Positions 23,674 to 31,829 of a stretch of DNA of 64,000 bases are shown here, in pieces (position 1 is the first letter of the stretch; every line of letters starts with the position of its first letter). The notes beneath the pieces are model-generated. The model was not told the DNA's origin and did no database searches. It worked only from the letters and a program-made list of their open reading frames with translations. The position numbers and the translations under genes are program-made. Source of the stretch: Corallococcus sp. AS-1-6 (GTDB lineage: Bacteria > Myxococcota > Myxococcia > Myxococcales > Myxococcaceae); contig NZ_JAIQDE010000008.1 of NCBI RefSeq assembly GCF_020037015.1, forward strand, positions 186,001-250,000, written 5' to 3'.

Positions 23674-25521
23674 ATGGCCCACCCCGCCGAGCCGCTCCCG
23701 CCGGAGCCTTCCGTCCCCCTGTCCTCCGTGCCCGACGCCGTCGCGCCGCGCTTCCGCTTCCTCCCCGCGGTCGGCACGTGGAAGTACCACCTGCTGCTCG
23801 CGTCGGTGGCCATCTTCTTCCTGGGCCCCCTGGGCGGCGTGGCCGCGTCGTACATGAACTTCAGCCTGGGCTTCTTCGTCGCCAGCCAGGTGCTGTCCGG
23901 CATCCTGGGCAGCGTCGTCACCTACGGCTACGGCGCGGAGGGCAAGCACGGCGCCAACTACATGCAGACGATGGCCGCGTCCGTGGCCTCGCTGTGCGCC
24001 ATGTCCGTGCTCATCCAGTCCATGGTGTGGCTGGGCATGCCCCAGCCGCCCGCGTGGCAGTTGATGCTCTTCGTGGGGTGCGTGGGCATGTTCGGCGTGG
24101 GCGTGGGCATGCTCTACACGCCGCTGCTCGTGGACCGGCTCCAGTTGGACTACCCGTCCGGCTACGCGGTGGCCAACATCCTGCGGGCGCTCACGGACAA
24201 GCGCCTGCTCAAGGCCTCCATCGCGAAGCTGGGCGGCGGCACCGGCCTGGGCATCCTGGCCGCGTGGCTCACGGAGAAGGTGGCCGCGGTCGCCGCGCTG
24301 GGCGTGAGCAGCTCCACTGTGGGCGCCGGCATGGTGGTGGGCAGCCGCATCACCGTGCCCGCCATGCTCATGGGCCTCATCGGCTACGCCATCACGCCCT
24401 TCCTGACGAGCATCGGGTGGCTGGGGCCGGGGGATCCGTACCGGAAGATCGGCTTCCTCATCTCGCTGGCGATGATCTGCGGCGCGGCGCTGGTGGACCT
24501 GTCGCTGCTCGCGGTGCAGGCGGTGGACCGCATCCGGGGGCGCGCGCAGGCCCCCGCGGACACCGAGCCCGCGTGGAAGAAGGTCAACGTGCCCCGGCTC
24601 ATCGCCTGGGTGGTGGGCTGGGGCGCGGCCGTCGTCGTGGTGGCCACGCAGGTGCTGCACCAGCCCCCGGGCTTCATCCTCTTCGGGCTCGTGCTGTCGC
24701 TCTTGTTCGTGCTCATCAACGGCATCGCCTACGGCATCAGCGACAACAACCCCATCTCCAGCGCCTTCGTGGTGTCGGTGCTGCTGATGTCGCTGCTGGG
24801 CCTGAAGGATCCGCTGGTGGGGCTGATGGCGTCCTCCATCCTGCTCATCTCCACGTCGGTGGGCTGCGACATGCAGCAGGACCGCTCCACCGGGTGGCGC
24901 CTGGGCACCAACCGCGTGGTGCAGTTCCGCTACCAGGTGCTGGGCATCTTCATGGGCGCGGTGCTGTGCGTGGTGCTGGCGCGCGTCTTCATGGGCGCGT
25001 ACCCGGTGCTGTCCGTCAACCAGTTGGACCACCCGGACGTGAAGGTGGCCCAGTGGAGCTCCGCGATGACGTACAAGTTCGTGGGCGCCATCCGCGACCT
25101 GGGCACGCTGTCCGCGCACAAGGTGACGGCGCTGCTCGTGGGCCTGTGCATCGGCTTCACGCTGGAGGTCATCCGCAAGGTGGTGCGCCGCCGCCCCGCG
25201 TACCTGCGCTACGTGCAGGGCTCGCGCACGGGGTTCGGCGTGGGATGGACCCTGGACTCGCTGGTGCTGGCCAGCCCCTACGCGCTCGCGTTCGGCGGCT
25301 TCATCGCGCTGCCCGCGGCCATCTGGTTCGGCGTGGGCGGCGTCCTCACGTCCGTCTTCAACACCGTGTCCAAGCGCTTCCGCAAGGAGCCCGCGCCCGG
25401 TGAGGCGGTGCTGCCGGAGGACATGAGCACCATGTCGCTGGTGGGCGGCGGCCTCATCGCGGGCGAGTCGCTCTTCTACCTCTTCGTGGGGCTCGCCGGC
25501 CTGCTGTCCCTGTTGGGCTGA
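23674..25521 (+). CDS. OPT-family oligopeptide/metal-complex transporter
   Basis: A 615-aa inner-membrane protein with about 14-15 hydrophobic helices, the size and topology of the oligopeptide transporter (OPT) superfamily. Family-like segments include ASYMNFSLGFFVASQVLSG, LDYPSGYAVANILRAL (the conserved P-S/T-G-x-A-xA-N motif), TVPAMLMGLIGYAI and ISDNNPISSAFVVSVLLMS. Members import small peptides or metal-chelator complexes, driven by protons. The cytoplasmic N-terminus (residues 1-28) is Pro-rich. ATG at 23674 is 127 bases from the divergent MBL gene start. The substrate cannot be told; no peptidase or siderophore gene lies beside it. Confidence 0.87.
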   Translation: MAHPAEPLPPEPSVPLSSVPDAVAPRFRFLPAVGTWKYHLLLASVAIFFLGPLGGVAASYMNFSLGFFVASQVLSGILGSVVTYGYGAEGKHGANYMQTMAASVASLCAMSVLIQSMVWLGMPQPPAWQLMLFVGCVGMFGVGVGMLYTPLLVDRLQLDYPSGYAVANILRALTDKRLLKASIAKLGGGTGLGILAAWLTEKVAAVAALGVSSSTVGAGMVVGSRITVPAMLMGLIGYAITPFLTSIGWLGPGDPYRKIGFLISLAMICGAALVDLSLLAVQAVDRIRGRAQAPADTEPAWKKVNVPRLIAWVVGWGAAVVVVATQVLHQPPGFILFGLVLSLLFVLINGIAYGISDNNPISSAFVVSVLLMSLLGLKDPLVGLMASSILLISTSVGCDMQQDRSTGWRLGTNRVVQFRYQVLGIFMGAVLCVVLARVFMGAYPVLSVNQLDHPDVKVAQWSSAMTYKFVGAIRDLGTLSAHKVTALLVGLCIGFTLEVIRKVVRRRPAYLRYVQGSRTGFGVGWTLDSLVLASPYALAFGGFIALPAAIWFGVGGVLTSVFNTVSKRFRKEPAPGEAVLPEDMSTMSLVGGGLIAGESLFYLFVGLAGLLSLLG

Positions 25522-25581
25522 AGGCGTCCTGTCCCGGAGCACGGCTTGACTTTCCGTGCCTCCGGGAGCACTTGTTGTCGC

Positions 25582-25665
25582 GTGAGCCTCGTCATCCACA
25601 CCACCGCGACCACGACCACCACCGCTTCGGCGGGCGTGGGTGCGGTGCGCGTGTCGGTGGACTGA
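25582..25665 (+). CDS. threonine-rich leader peptide (27 aa)
   Basis: GTG at 25582 opens a 27-codon frame ending TGA 25663-25665. Its core is HTTATTTTTAS: seven Thr codons among eight consecutive codons (25600-25623). It lies upstream of a threonyl-tRNA synthetase-like gene and is followed by mutually exclusive hairpins (25645-25714). This is the arrangement of amino-acid attenuators such as the E. coli thr leader, where ribosome stalling at Thr codons signals low charged tRNA-Thr. A GGGAG at 25564-25568 is rather far (13 bases) to be its ribosome-binding site. A competing His-rich frame over the same bases runs through without a stop into the synthetase gene and looks like a shadow. Confidence 0.6.
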   Translation: MSLVIHTTATTTTTASAGVGAVRVSVD

Positions 25666-25714
25666 CGAGCGCACGGTTTTCCGCCCCGCCGAGTTCCGGC
25701 CGGGGCGACCGTGC
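25645..25714 (+). promoter_or_regulatory. attenuator-like alternative hairpins before the ThrRS-like gene
   Basis: Terminator-like form: GCACGGT (25671-25677) pairs with ACCGTGC (25708-25714), continuing inward as CGCCCCG (25682-25688) with CGGGGCG (25701-25707), 14 bp in all with a 4-base bulge. Competing form: GTGCGC (25645-25650) can pair with GCGCAC (25669-25674), which uses the same bases as the left arm of the first stem. A ribosome stalled on the Thr codons would leave 25645-25650 free and favour the second form. No T run follows, so termination may need Rho, or control may act on translation. A TTGACT at 25546-25551 could be the -35 box. Confidence 0.55.
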
Positions 25715-25776
25715 AACCTCACACGCCCCGTGTCCGGCCCCGGCTGCTTCATCCCGACCGACACACGGAGACGACC

Positions 25777-26979
25777 ATGCTTGATGAACACGACCACCGC
25801 GCGCTGGGCCAGCGCCTGGACCTCTTCCACCTGCAGGAGGAGGCGCCGGGCATGGTGTTCTGGCACCCGCGCGGACTGATGCTGTACCGGCTCCTGGAGG
25901 ACCACGTCCGCCAGCGCATGCGCGAGGAGGGCTACCGCGAAGTCCGTACGCCGCAGTTGTGCGCCCAGCCGCTGTGGGAGCAGAGCGGCCACTGGGACAA
26001 CTTCCGCCAGAACATGTTCTGCCTGCCGGAGGGCGACCGGCACCTGGCGCTGAAGCCGGTGAGCTGCCCCGGCCACATCCAGCTCGTGCAGCGCATGGCG
26101 CCCAGCCACCGCGACCTGCCCCTGCGGCTGGGGGAGTTCGGGCTGGTGCACCGCAGCGAGCCCAGCGGCGCGTTGCACGGGCTGTTCCGCCTGCGCCAGT
26201 TCACGCAGGACGACGGCCACATCTTCTGCGCGGCGGAGCAGGTGGAGGCGGAGGTCGTCCGCTTCGTGCGCTCGCTCAAGGCGTTCTACGCGGGCTTCGG
26301 CTTCGACGACGTGCAGGTGGCCTTCTCCAGCCGCCCGGCGATGCGCGCCGGCGCTGACGCGCTGTGGGACCAGGCGGAGGCGTGGCTCCAGTCCGCGGCG
26401 AGGCAGGCGGGCCTCCAGTACGAGGACCAGCCCGGCGAGGGCGCCTTCTACGGGCCCAAGCTGGAGTTCGTGCTGAAGGACCGGCTGGGCCGCGCGTGGC
26501 AGTGCGGGACGATCCAACTGGACCTGGTGCTGCCGGAGCGCTTCGACCTGCACTACGTCGGCGCGTCCGGAGAGCGCCTGCGCCCGGTGATGCTTCACCG
26601 CGCGCTGTTCGGCAGCCTGGAGCGCTTCATCGGCGTGCTGCTGGAGCACCACGGGGGCGCGCTCCCAGCGTGGCTCGCGCCAGAGCAGGTGGTGGTGGCC
26701 TCCGTGGGAGCGGGGGCCGCCGCGTACGCGGAAAGCCTGGCGGCGCGGCTGCGGCTGGCCGGCTGCCGCGCGCGGGCGGACGTGCGGGACGAGTCCCTGT
26801 CGAAGAAGGTCCTGGGCTCGCACGAGGACGGGGTGCCGTTCCTCGCGGTGGTGGGTGGCCGCGAGGTGGAGTCCCAGGGCGTCCGCCTGCGCCAGCGCGA
26901 CGGCTCCCAGCGCGACCTGCCCTGGGATGAGGCCGTGGCGTGGCTGTCCGCCGCGTGCCAGCCGGCCGTGGCGGGCTGA
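25777..26979 (+). CDS. threonyl-tRNA synthetase-like protein lacking TGS and editing domains
   Basis: A 400-aa class II synthetase consisting of only the ThrRS catalytic core and the C-terminal anticodon-binding domain; normal bacterial ThrRS is about 640 residues with N-terminal TGS and editing domains. Motif 2 (HRSEPSGALHGLFRLRQFTQ) and the motif 3 region (EHHGGALPAWLAPEQ) are intact, and the zinc ligands are conserved: Cys in VSCPGHI, His in DDGHIF and His in MLHRALFGSLERF. ATG at 25777 follows CGGAGACGACC. It could be a stress-induced or inhibitor-resistant second ThrRS, or a synthetase-like enzyme that activates Thr for another pathway. The Thr-codon leader upstream argues that it responds to threonine or Thr-tRNA supply. 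Without the editing domain, Ser mischarging would not be corrected in cis. Confidence 0.85.
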   Translation: MLDEHDHRALGQRLDLFHLQEEAPGMVFWHPRGLMLYRLLEDHVRQRMREEGYREVRTPQLCAQPLWEQSGHWDNFRQNMFCLPEGDRHLALKPVSCPGHIQLVQRMAPSHRDLPLRLGEFGLVHRSEPSGALHGLFRLRQFTQDDGHIFCAAEQVEAEVVRFVRSLKAFYAGFGFDDVQVAFSSRPAMRAGADALWDQAEAWLQSAARQAGLQYEDQPGEGAFYGPKLEFVLKDRLGRAWQCGTIQLDLVLPERFDLHYVGASGERLRPVMLHRALFGSLERFIGVLLEHHGGALPAWLAPEQVVVASVGAGAAAYAESLAARLRLAGCRARADVRDESLSKKVLGSHEDGVPFLAVVGGREVESQGVRLRQRDGSQRDLPWDEAVAWLSAACQPAVAG

Positions 26980-28159: not shown

Positions 28160-29806
28160 ATGCGACGACCTCCCGCCGGACTCCGGGTGCTGCTGACCGC
28201 GCTCTTGCTGGGAGGGGCTGCCCGGGGGGCGCCCCCTCCGAAAGCAGCGCCGCCCCAGGTGGCGTGGCTCTATCAGGACCGGCTGGCCCCGCCCTGGGAG
28301 GACCTGACGTGGGCCGGGGCGCACGCGATGAGCGCCGCCGTGGCGGGGGCCTCGGGCCGCCACGCCATCTCCGTGACGCTGGGGCCCTGGGAGGCGCTGT
28401 ACTTCGGCCACCCGGGCTTCGACGTGTCACCGGAGGACACGCTGGTGCTGAAGGTGAACGGCGGGAAGGACGGCGCGAACGCGGCGGTTCGCGCGCGCGT
28501 CGTCCTCGGCTCCGAGCAACCCGTGGGCGTGCCCCTGGGCCCCACCTGCGAGGGCGGCGCCATCCCCGCCAGGAAGTGGACGACCTGCCGCGTGCCCCTG
28601 GCGAAGCTGCTGCCCGAGGGCCGGACGCGCATCACCGGCCTGTGGCTCCAGGAGGACAGCGGCAAGACGCTGCCGCCGCTCTTCTTCGACGACGTCGGCA
28701 TCGAGCAGGGCCTCCGGCCGGTGACCGTCACGCGGGAGCCGCCCGCCGTCCCGCGACAGGGCGGCAAGTGGGTGTCCGGCTATTACACGGGCTGGAACGC
28801 GGATGACTATCCGCCGGAGAAGGTGGACTTCAGCGCGCTCACGCACATCCTCGTGGGCCGCGTCACGCCGAAGGCGGACGGCACGCTGAGCACGAAGTTC
28901 GACAACGACCGGGGGCCGGAGATCGCCCGCACGCTGTCGAAGCGCGCGCATGCGGCGGGCCGCAAGGCGCTCATCATGGTGGGCGGCTCCGGTGAGCACG
29001 ACGGCTGGGTGGGCGCCGCGTCCGACGCGAACCGCGCGAGGTTCGTCCGCGCGCTGCTGAAGGCCGTGGACGACTTCGGCTACGACGGGCTCGACCTGGA
29101 CTGGGAGCCCGTGGAGAAGGAGGACCGGCCGAAGCTGCTGGCCCTGGTGAAGGCGCTGCGCGAGGCGCGGCCGAAGCTGCTCCTCACCTTCCCCCTCCAC
29201 TGGATCAACACCAACTTCCCCACCGACGCCGACCCCTGGTTCGCGGAGCTGGCCACGTACTTCGATCAGATGAACCTGATGTCCTACGAGATGATTGGCG
29301 CGTGGGACGGCTGGAAGTCCTGGCACACGTCCGCGCTGAAGGGCGAACAGGGGCTGCACCCCACGTCCGTCGAGTCCAGCCTGGCGCTGTGGGTGAAGGC
29401 CGGCATCCCCAAGGCGAAGCTGGGCATCGGCATCCCCTTCTACGGCCTCGCGTGGCGCCACATCACCGGACCCTACCAGCCGTTCACGAACTGGTCCGAC
29501 TACGTGGGCGGGGACAACTCGTTCACCTACAAGAAGATCCTCCGCTATTCGAAGCAGGGGAAGTACCAGTGGGACGAGAAGGCCCAGGCCAGCTACGTGA
29601 CGTTCGCTCCGGACAAGCTCGTGGAGGACGGCACGGTGACGTGGATCTCCTACGACAGCCCGCAGGCCATCGCCGCCAAGGGCGCCTTCGTGAAGCAGGA
29701 GGGCTACGGCGGCACCATCCTCTGGACACTCAACCAGGGATGCGTCGACCCGGTGACGGGCGCCAACCCGTTGCTGGACGCGGTGAAGGCCGCGTTCCTC
29801 CCGTAG
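28160..29806 (+). CDS. secreted GH18 chitinase-like enzyme
   Basis: A 548-aa secreted protein: signal peptide (residues 1-23), an N-terminal beta-sandwich of about 170 residues that resembles a carbohydrate-binding module (VAWLYQDRLAPPW, then ALYFGHPGFDV), and a GH18 barrel from KWVSGYYTGWN. The catalytic signature DGLDLDWE is complete at residues 309-316, with Glu316 as the acid; MNLMSYEM and the final W in TILWTLNQG also fit the family. The enzyme should cleave beta-1,4-GlcNAc chains such as chitin or related glycans by substrate-assisted retention, fitting a predatory or saprophytic life. It starts 49 bases after msrB. A paralogue follows in tandem. Confidence 0.88.
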   Translation: MRRPPAGLRVLLTALLLGGAARGAPPPKAAPPQVAWLYQDRLAPPWEDLTWAGAHAMSAAVAGASGRHAISVTLGPWEALYFGHPGFDVSPEDTLVLKVNGGKDGANAAVRARVVLGSEQPVGVPLGPTCEGGAIPARKWTTCRVPLAKLLPEGRTRITGLWLQEDSGKTLPPLFFDDVGIEQGLRPVTVTREPPAVPRQGGKWVSGYYTGWNADDYPPEKVDFSALTHILVGRVTPKADGTLSTKFDNDRGPEIARTLSKRAHAAGRKALIMVGGSGEHDGWVGAASDANRARFVRALLKAVDDFGYDGLDLDWEPVEKEDRPKLLALVKALREARPKLLLTFPLHWINTNFPTDADPWFAELATYFDQMNLMSYEMIGAWDGWKSWHTSALKGEQGLHPTSVESSLALWVKAGIPKAKLGIGIPFYGLAWRHITGPYQPFTNWSDYVGGDNSFTYKKILRYSKQGKYQWDEKAQASYVTFAPDKLVEDGTVTWISYDSPQAIAAKGAFVKQEGYGGTILWTLNQGCVDPVTGANPLLDAVKAAFLP

Positions 29807-29939
29807 ACGTCCTGCACTCCACCTCCAGGTAGTACCGGTGGCGGATGCGAGCGACGCCGCTCTTTTCTATGTCCTGGCACCGCCCCCACGGCGCGGTGTG
29901 CGAGCACTGTCTGCTCACGCTCCTCATGAAGAGAGTGAC

Positions 29940-31829
29940 ATGCAAAGAGAAGCAAGGACGTGGTTCCTTGTCGCGCTGACGCTCATCCTGCTCACCCGCT
30001 CGGAAGCGGGTGCCCAACCGCTCGAGGAGCAGGCCCGCCCCAGGACCCCCAACGCCGTCGCATGGATCTACCAGGACCGGTTGACGGCGCCGTGGAAGGA
30101 CACCTCCACGGCGAAGCACTCGCTGAGCGCGACCGCGCCGGTGTTCTCCGGCAGCTTCGCCATCTCGGTGACGATGGAGCCCTCCGAGGCGCTCTCGTTC
30201 TCCCACCCGGGCCTGGACGTGACGGCGTCCGACACCTTCACGCTGAAGGTCCATGGCGGTGAGTTTGGCGAAGGCGCGACCGTGCGCGTGCGTGCTGTCG
30301 CGAACGCAACGCAACACGCGGGCCTGCTGCTCGGCGACTACTGCGAAGGCGGGCGCATCCAGGCCCGGAAGTGGGTGACCTGCCATGTGCCGCTGGCGAA
30401 GCTGCTGCCCGCGGGAACGTCCCGCATCAAGGGCCTCTGGCTCCAGGAGACCCTCGGCAAGCCGCTGCCGACGCTCTACTTCGATGACCTCCGCGTGGAG
30501 TCCTCGGGGACCACCCCCCCGCAGGTGGTCGTCACGGTGAGCCCGACGCAGGTGGAGCTGGCTCCCGGCGCTGCGTACACCTTCCAGGCCACGGTGACGG
30601 GCAGCACGGACACGTCGGTGACGTGGGAGCTGGATCCCCAGACGGGCTCGGGCACCATCACCTCCGGGGGCGTCTATACCGCCCCCACCACGCAGGGCAC
30701 CTACGGCGTGGTGGCGCGCAGCCGGGCGGACCCCACGAAGTTCGCGCGGGCGACCGCGTGGGTGCATGCCATTGGAGGCGGCTCCGGCAAGTGGGTGTCC
30801 GGCTATTACACGGGCTGGAACGCGGATGAGTACCCGCCGGAGAAGGTGGACTTCAGCGCGCTCACGCACATCCTCGTGGGCCGCGCCACGCCCCGGCCTG
30901 ACGGCACGCTCAACACCCAGTTCGACAATGACAACGGCCCGGCCATCGCACGGCTGCTGGCGCAGCGCGCCCACGCGGCGGGCCGCAAGGCGCTCATCAT
31001 GGTGGGCGGCTCCGGTGAGCACGAGGGGTGGGTGGGCGCCGCGTCGGACGCGAACCGCGCGAAGTTCGTCCAGGCGCTGCTGAAGGCCGTGGACGACTTC
31101 GGCTACGACGGCCTGGACCTGAACTGGGAGCCCGTGGAGTTGGAGGACCGGCTCCACCTGCTGGCCCTGGTGCAGACCCTGCGCGCCGCGCGGCCGGGCC
31201 TGCTCCTCACCTTCCCCATCCACTGGATCAACACCAACTTCCCCGAGGACGCCGCCCCCTGGTACGCGGAGCTCGCGCTGTACCTGGACCAGGTGAACGT
31301 CATGTCCTACTCCATGGTGGGCCCCTGGGACGGCTGGGTGTCCTGGTACACGTCCGCGCTCCGGGGCGAGTCGGGACAGCACCCCACCTCCATCGAGTCC
31401 AGCCTGGCGCTGTGGGCGGCGGCCGGCATCCCCAAGGCGAAGCTGGGCATCGGCATCCCCTTCTACGGCATGGGCTGGCGCAACATCACCGGGCCCTACC
31501 AGCCCTTCACGGACTGGTCCGACTACGTGGGCGGGGACAACTCGTTCACGTACAAGAACATCCTCGCGTGGTCGGTGTTGGGGACCCACCACTGGGATGA
31601 CGCGGCGCAGGCCGAGTACCTCACCTTCCCGCCGAACACGCCCATCGAGGACGGCACGGTGCGGTGGATCTCCTATGACGGCCCGCAGGCCATCGCCGCC
31701 AAGGGCGCCTTCGTGAAGCAGCAGGGCTACGGCGGCACCATCATCTGGACCATCAACCAGGGCTGCACCGATCCGGAGACCGGCGCCAACCCGTTGCTGG
31801 ACGCGGTGAAGGGCGCCCTCCTGCAATGA
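29940..31829 (+). CDS. secreted GH18 paralogue with Ig-like insert and altered catalytic motif
   Basis: A 629-aa protein: signal peptide (residues 1-27, ending EAGAQ), the same N-terminal beta-sandwich as the upstream gene, an added Big-type Ig-like domain of about 90 residues (VVVTVSPTQVELAPGAAYTF to the start of the barrel), and a GH18 barrel. The catalytic motif reads DGLDLNWE at residues 390-397: the Asp two before the catalytic Glu is Asn395, while the upstream paralogue has Asp. In GH18 enzymes that Asp positions the substrate N-acetyl group, and its amide form usually lowers activity strongly. ATG at 29940 directly precedes the signal peptide, with GAAGAGAG upstream. The two genes share long stretches at the DNA level, indicating a tandem duplication. 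Confidence 0.86.
   Translation: MQREARTWFLVALTLILLTRSEAGAQPLEEQARPRTPNAVAWIYQDRLTAPWKDTSTAKHSLSATAPVFSGSFAISVTMEPSEALSFSHPGLDVTASDTFTLKVHGGEFGEGATVRVRAVANATQHAGLLLGDYCEGGRIQARKWVTCHVPLAKLLPAGTSRIKGLWLQETLGKPLPTLYFDDLRVESSGTTPPQVVVTVSPTQVELAPGAAYTFQATVTGSTDTSVTWELDPQTGSGTITSGGVYTAPTTQGTYGVVARSRADPTKFARATAWVHAIGGGSGKWVSGYYTGWNADEYPPEKVDFSALTHILVGRATPRPDGTLNTQFDNDNGPAIARLLAQRAHAAGRKALIMVGGSGEHEGWVGAASDANRAKFVQALLKAVDDFGYDGLDLNWEPVELEDRLHLLALVQTLRAARPGLLLTFPIHWINTNFPEDAAPWYAELALYLDQVNVMSYSMVGPWDGWVSWYTSALRGESGQHPTSIESSLALWAAAGIPKAKLGIGIPFYGMGWRNITGPYQPFTDWSDYVGGDNSFTYKNILAWSVLGTHHWDDAAQAEYLTFPPNTPIEDGTVRWISYDGPQAIAAKGAFVKQQGYGGTIIWTINQGCTDPETGANPLLDAVKGALLQ

Follow-up and report, generated by a model that had tools for sequence, protein, structure and literature searches.

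A threonine-codon leader and alternative RNA helices upstream of a second, editing-less threonyl-tRNA synthetase gene in myxobacteria

Why does a gene for a threonyl-tRNA synthetase (ThrRS) stand behind a short open reading frame (ORF) that is rich in Thr codons, and at which step might such an ORF control the gene? The question is raised by a locus of Corallococcus sp. AS-1-6 situated in a stretch of 64,000 nucleotides, here termed the window; positions are those of the window and the features of the locus are listed in Table 1.

The thrS2 gene and its threonine-rich leader

The gene, here named thrS2, had been described preliminarily as ThrRS-like, and its product is a class II ThrRS, with a catalytic core and an anticodon-binding domain that score above the curated cut-off: TIGR00418 is matched with 452.7 bits (cut-off 383.65), covering model positions 170–561 only, and the Pfam families PF00587 and PF03129, and nothing else, were recognised in it. 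Alignment to solved ThrRS places Cys, His and His at the Zn-ligand positions, and we take these residues to be the Zn ligands. It is, however, not the sole ThrRS of the organism; as the TGS and editing domains are missing from the product and a full-length ThrRS is encoded elsewhere in the same genome (G000:C1), thrS2 is regarded as specifying an auxiliary second synthetase. The protein is 97% identical to its C. carmarthensis counterpart (L074). The leader and thrS2 appear to form a separately promoted unit, because the upstream gene for an OPT-type transporter stops at 25521 and the next gene after thrS2, which encodes a CBS-domain protein, lies on the opposite strand. In 21 of the 65 fetched relatives, moreover, the flanking sequence retrieved (some 1.5 kb) contained no OPT gene detectable by tblastn, and thus the unit persists in other neighbourhoods. 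Elsewhere in the window, two adjacent same-strand genes at 28160–31829, both belonging to PF00704 (glycosyl hydrolase family 18), are likely to represent a tandem duplication, their translations being alike by eye.

The leader ORF of Corallococcus translates as VSLVIHTTATTTTTASAGVGAVRVSVD, and its 27 codons, its end and its run of seven Thr codons in eight are as the preliminary description had given them. A six-frame scan of the window identified at least five Thr in eight codons at 10 separate places and at least seven in eight only at 25600, a density that occurred at no place in each of 20 first-order Markov windows. Additionally, no Thr-rich ORF was present in the stretches scanned before the full-length thrS and the two best thrC matches of the same genome.

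Conservation was assessed in the family Myxococcaceae, where a search of 96 genomes identified a short-type gene scoring above 500 bits in 66, that of the present genome included, and the upstream region of all 66 was examined. No short-type ThrRS was matched above 500 bits in 30 of the 96 family genomes, and some assemblies are incomplete. Five more distant short-type genes (L075, in which the extracted gene start lies 3 nt too late, L094, L153, L154 and L193) brought the set to 71; L142 was dropped, having passed the short-type filter at a contig end only, and L073 and L074 were excluded as duplicates of G064 and G017, respectively. Short-type genes below the score cut-offs would escape this search, and G161 was missed at first in that way. 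An in-frame Thr-rich leader precedes all 71 distinct genes (66 from Myxococcaceae and five from other myxobacteria), each of which therefore carries what defines a ribosome-mediated attenuator at the level of coding, namely a short ORF with a run of codons for the amino acid served by the downstream gene; the comparison of orthologues that had been proposed at the outset thus yielded the Thr run throughout.

The run holds between five and eight Thr per eight codons in the frame of the ORF (frame 0) and at most two in the other frames in all 71 leaders. Of these leaders, 45 have the RNA motif that follows the run, GGCGGG, in frame 0 and 21 have it in frame 2; the exact motif is missing in five. 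Because the Thr frame is constant while this motif changes frame, the Thr codons appear to be kept as codons and the remainder as RNA; a one-base shift between lineages would therefore alter nothing but the peptide tail and preserve both Thr codons and RNA motif. These observations bear on the proposal that the ORF is a by-product of an ACC-rich RNA element whose hairpins act alone, through RNA stability or a protein ligand, with no control by ribosome stalling. The stems are indeed very stable, and equilibrium folding alone yields a closed Shine-Dalgarno (SD) sequence, but such an element would not be expected to hold the Thr frame fixed relative to both start codon and promoter while the neighbouring motif shifts, nor to employ ACC (332), ACG (134) and ACT (78) alike, ACA never being used (70 leaders); we consider it the least probable of the explanations discussed here.

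The distance from TTGAC to the leader start is 35–39 nt in 69 of the 71 leaders and exactly 36 nt in 59; L094 is without an exact TTGAC motif, and in L193 the motif lies 41 nt before the first in-frame ATG. Among the family leaders with exactly 36-nt spacing (59 of 66), C-A at −13/−12 is invariant (59/59), as is C at −1, and T occupies −9 in 97%. A generic sigma-70 scan reports no promoter at the leader, and the sole terminator-like site called in 25400–25900 (25551–25568) overlaps the leader promoter and is probably a chance match, the mean in shuffles being 0.3. None of the 71 leader starts has an SD-like 4-mer (GGAG, AGGA, GAGG or AAGG) at −16 to −5, and GGAG or AGGA is found near −10 in all 71 thrS2 genes. 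The leader, its frame and its promoter spacing are directly legible in the sequences, and the nearly constant TTGAC spacing, together with the lack of an SD before the start codon, suggests that the leader ORF is probably leaderless. Leaderless leader peptides are described for Streptomyces (PMC8079986) and, in the form of trpL, for S. meliloti (PMC10117765).

Table 1. Positions of the promoter elements, leader, RNA strands and gene in the window
Feature	Position	Strand	Remarks
−35 element TTGACT of leader promoter	25546–25551	+	TTGAC spacing to leader start
Probable −10 element	25569–25574	+	17-nt spacer; conserved C-A at −13/−12
Thr leader peptide ORF	25582–25665	+	GTG start at 25582, 27 codons, stop 25663–25665; probably leaderless
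Strand 1, Thr run, proposed sensor	25600–25623	+	Seven Thr in eight codons
Strand 2	25626–25650	+	Pairs with strand 1 or strand 3; 22-pair 2:3 helix in window fold from 25626
Strand 3	25669–25693	+	5′ arm of hairpin 3:4; can pair with strand 2 instead
Strand 4	25697–25714	+	3′ arm of hairpin 3:4; may pair with strand 5; 17-pair 3:4 helix
Strand 5, anti-SD	25724–25743	+	Pairs with 25754–25773 in window
Strand 6	25754–25773	+	Holds thrS2 SD GGAG (25767–25770)
thrS2, short ThrRS	25777–26979	+	Catalytic core and anticodon-binding domain; without TGS or editing domain

Alternative helices and tests of their co-evolution

The minimum free energy (MFE) of 25560–25790 lies below that of dinucleotide shuffles (z −3.32, 0/200). 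The hairpin that the preliminary description had placed at 25671–25714 appears in the folds, although with 17 pairs (seven outer and ten inner, with one bulge) instead of the 14 stated, and the alternative partner suggested for its left arm was found as well, since 25645–25650 (GTGCGC) can pair with 25669–25674 (GCGCAC), thereby sharing 25671–25674 with the hairpin. A longer competing pairing, of 25626–25650 with 25669–25693, is possible, and a further hairpin (25724–25773) covers the SD of thrS2. With helices named after their two strands, the window folds into 2:3 and 4:5 when folding begins at 25626 and into 3:4 and 5:6, the hairpins of the proposed OFF form, when it begins at 25653. Both OFF hairpins were seen in most of the MFE structures of 20 relatives, as judged by eye, and in the presence of strand 3 the probability of 5:6 exceeds 0.5 in 70 of 71 sequences (the exception being L072), in which the SD of the target gene is thus predicted to be covered in the OFF form, as in a translational attenuator.

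Whether the paired strands change together was assessed in several ways. When 65 sequences were scanned for covariation without guidance but with account of the tree, none of 30,876 column pairs reached E < 0.05. Guided tests, for which helices and lineages were picked after inspecting the sequences, consisted of a strand-swap test, in which strands were exchanged between lineages for all 15 strand pairs in 14 lineages, and a tree-based null with window-derived helices (400 simulations, three measures). In the swap test, a home advantage was observed for 1:2 (p 0.0001), 2:3 (p 0.0004), 3:4 and 5:6 (each 0/10,000 permutations), while 4:5 gave p 0.107 and the ten remaining pairs p > 0.25; the non-partners 1:6, 2:4 and 3:6 were worse at home (p 0.979–0.999). 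Across runs, the values ranged from 0.0004 to 0.004 for 2:3 and remained at or below 0.002 for 3:4 and at or below 0.0001 for 5:6. The result for 4:5 varied, being 1518/20,000 in an earlier run on five pairs, p 0.058 with 15 lineages and p 0.003–0.005 with the 10 lineages judged most divergent; the non-partner 4:6 reached p 0.015 with both 15 and 10 lineages.

Under the tree-based null, 5:6 was matched in 2–3 of 400 simulations and 3:4 in 0/400 for paired double changes (15/400 and 75/400 for the other two measures), 2:3 was borderline (14–23/400) and 4:5 was unsupported (27–113/400). Dinucleotide shuffles of 70 sequences gave p ≤ 0.05 for 2:3 in 56, for 4:5 in 48, for 5:6 in 17 and for 1:2 in 13. 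Additionally, in L094, whose thrS2 SD reads AGGA, and in L193, changes in the anti-SD strand are accompanied by changes in the sequence surrounding the SD; in L072, L154 and L094, 5:6 gains little at home (0 to −0.7 kcal/mol). Mutually exclusive helices with compensatory change, as an attenuator would possess, were thus found for 1:2, 2:3, 3:4 and 5:6 in the guided swap tests, with nothing significant in the unguided scan, and it is in this divided form that the covariation anticipated in the preliminary description was encountered. The SD helix with its co-evolution and the alternative pairings can be read from the sequences themselves, and we regard the four helices as having good support as predicted structures and 4:5 as having moderate support, bearing in mind that 4:5 can show little change because strands 4 and 5 are nearly invariant in the family. 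A pairing of strands 2 and 5 around 3:4, proposed by RNAalifold for 29 leaders, was not adopted, since it showed no co-evolution in the swap test (p 0.82–0.91); it may still occur as a transient form.

A possible switch at translation initiation

On the basis of these comparisons, we consider it likely that the leader constitutes a ribosome-mediated attenuator which senses the charging of Thr-tRNA and gates the auxiliary ThrRS mainly at translation initiation. As we infer the course of events, transcription would start at or beside the leader start codon and the leader would be translated without an SD. With ample Thr-tRNA, the ribosome would reach the stop codon and mask strand 2, 3:4 would form, and strand 5 would remain free to pair with the SD region (5:6), which represents the OFF form. 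With scarce Thr-tRNA, the ribosome would stall in the Thr run and strand 2 would pair with strand 3, so that strand 4 would be released and could pair with strand 5, leaving the SD in strand 6 open (the ON form). In an untranslated leader, 1:2 would form, followed by 3:4 and 5:6, and the gene would again be OFF.

The alternative pairings would presumably respond to any stall at the right place, and a translated leader that is not Thr-specific, opening whenever translation is slowed, as by antibiotics in erm leaders, would make use of the same helices. We regard this as improbable, given that Thr is by far the commonest leader residue (544 occurrences in 70 leaders when first codons are left out, compared with 238 of Val) and that its run is in frame in every one of the 71 leaders.

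Transcription attenuation, with 3:4 as a terminator (intrinsic in some lineages and Rho-aided in others), 2:3 as antiterminator and 5:6 setting a low basal level, deserves more weight, although it too appears rather unlikely to us. The swap test indicates co-evolution of 1:2, 2:3 and 3:4, which are the helices of a classic attenuator, and among the five pairs of neighbouring strands the weakest is 4:5, through which 3:4 would be linked to the SD. Furthermore, hairpin 3:4 of L153 (G116:C1070) is followed by a T-rich tail (five T in eight) and may also be an intrinsic terminator, and distant relatives may therefore use both transcriptional and translational control. Conversely, such a tail (at least five T in eight within 25 nt of hairpin 3:4) is absent from the other 70 sequences, the window among them, where the hairpin lacks the U-run of an intrinsic terminator, in agreement with the earlier report of no T run. 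Folding, moreover, predicts the SD helix for 70 of the 71 sequences, and in the swap test the helix and the SD region change together, also in L094 with its altered SD. Since the T-rich tail is so generally absent and the SD helix tracks changes of the SD region, translational attenuation is ranked first and transcription attenuation second. The preliminary description had offered a Rho-dependent or a translational mechanism, and of these two the SD-covering hairpin points to translation initiation.

How translational attenuation could operate was explored by folding the leaders in different ribosome states. At equilibrium, the SD was mostly paired in every state (median unpaired 0.01 in 70 sequences), and upon comparison of the stalled with the stop state it was more open by over 0.2 in one of 70 and less open by over 0.2 in one of 70. 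From stop to stalled, SD openness changed from 0.32 to 0.52 in the window, from 0.01 to 0.39 in L069 and from 0.30 to 0.07 in L011. The stalled fold of the window displays 2:3 and 4:5; in general, equilibrium folding did not reproduce the switch. When strand 3 was removed, 4:5 formed in 52 of 71 sequences, yet 5:6 fell below 0.5 in just seven. Because the SD stays mostly closed under these conditions, the switch would require kinetic trapping, and either 4:5 would have to precede the synthesis of strand 6 or the ribosome would have to do more than block strand 1. Strand 3, too, would be touched by a ribosome terminating on the leader, the stop codon being placed between it and strand 2.

Distribution and relation to known systems

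A covariance model, R1, which finds the thrS2 leader in whole genomes, was constructed with 29 leaders, of which 25 belong to the 66 of the family and four are distant. Among 189 genomes of the phylum, 68 were matched at E ≤ 0.01, comprising the 66 short-type Myxococcaceae together with G162 and G161; of these, 25 Myxococcaceae and G162 had contributed to the model, whereas G161 had not. G161, the sole new genome, carries eight consecutive Thr codons followed by a short ThrRS gene, and its SD-covering helix is of a sequence unlike the others. A second, weak match in G073 (L194; G073:C1:219105–219212, minus strand; 34.7 bits) resembles strand 2 and its surroundings, no ThrRS was found by tblastn in the 3 kb around it, and this fragment may be a partial duplication of the leader. 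Weaker matches (E 0.05–0.09) were obtained in G014, G104, G001 and G103.

Among known systems, the thr operon leader of E. coli controls biosynthesis genes, contains Ile codons as well and possesses an intrinsic terminator. The present locus resembles it (RF00506) in its Thr-codon leader peptide followed by competing hairpins, and to that extent the likeness drawn in the preliminary description is justified; it departs from it in its synthetase target, its conserved SD-covering hairpin, its probably leaderless ORF and the near-general absence of a T-rich tail (70 of 71). RF00506 itself scored 14.4 bits (E 3.3) relative to a gathering score of 55, no Rfam family matched the window at its gathering threshold, and no T-box was among the three Rfam matches up to E 10 in 25500–25830. 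In E. coli, the synthetase genes pheST follow a leader that contains codons for the cognate amino acid. The erm translational attenuators, which sense antibiotics and are ON when the leader ribosome stalls, resemble the switch proposed here in that a series of alternative helices ends with the SD either exposed or hidden, but here the signal would be codon-specific starvation.

Further synthetase leaders, as presented in the available portions of the papers, precede trpS and leuS of Streptomyces (PMC1262725, PMC8079986) and a hisS paralogue of Bacillus (PMC2965389), in each of which codons for the cognate amino acid precede a synthetase gene, sometimes an additional copy; these serve other amino acids and are described there as transcription attenuators and not as SD-covering switches. 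In S. lividans, several leaders are leaderless and some, e.g. trpL2 before trpS, are without a U-run, according to the same accessible text (PMC8079986), which also reports thrL before thrS. This thrL resembles the present case in that a leaderless leader peptide, with one hairpin that lacks a U-run, lies ahead of a ThrRS gene; it differs in having just two Thr in 18 residues, and is described in that portion without comparative evidence. SD-covering amino-acid control of translation initiation has been proposed for the actinobacterial LEU element before leuA and for ileS T-boxes (PMC1262725). The LEU element likewise combines a leader containing codons for its own amino acid (Leu) with covering of the SD; there, however, it is the run of codons that pairs with the SD. 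The ileS elements belong to the T-boxes, and a six-strand chain is described for neither in the text available.

A second ThrRS also has precedents. The T2 ThrRS of Anabaena is a second, editing-defective enzyme, expressed under stress beside a full ThrRS and induced via Zur on zinc limitation (PMC4787780); its editing domain is degenerate, whereas that of the thrS2 product is absent. ObaO is an obafluorin-resistant second ThrRS beside the housekeeping one (PMC11252418), and unlike in ObaO, the Gly-to-Ser exchange at EcThrRS 463 does not occur in the thrS2 product, which keeps AFYGPK (position matched by motif). As the key Gly is kept, obafluorin or borrelidin resistance by the ObaO route was dropped from consideration. 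Thr leaders and synthetase leaders are already known, and SD-covering amino-acid control has already been proposed (leuA, ileS). Searches of open-access papers returned no case of conserved control by Thr, apparently at translation, of a second ThrRS without editing domain in myxobacteria, and an aimed search of the open-access literature found no leader-peptide attenuator described for this group.

A more far-reaching scenario, which we put forward tentatively and with some doubt, is that of a leaderless, codon-specific six-strand switch of purely translational action that turns on the editing-less ThrRS when Thr-tRNA is short. Such a programmed emergency synthetase would secure survival at the cost of fidelity, through misactivation of Ser that the full-length ThrRS might proofread in trans, and would have been kept across myxobacteria. 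If the leader works as proposed, it would be an attenuator specific for one amino acid that acts chiefly on how translation starts and not on how transcription ends, and since it would tie tRNA charging to an editing-less spare synthetase, the conditional use of a less faithful ThrRS in starvation becomes testable.
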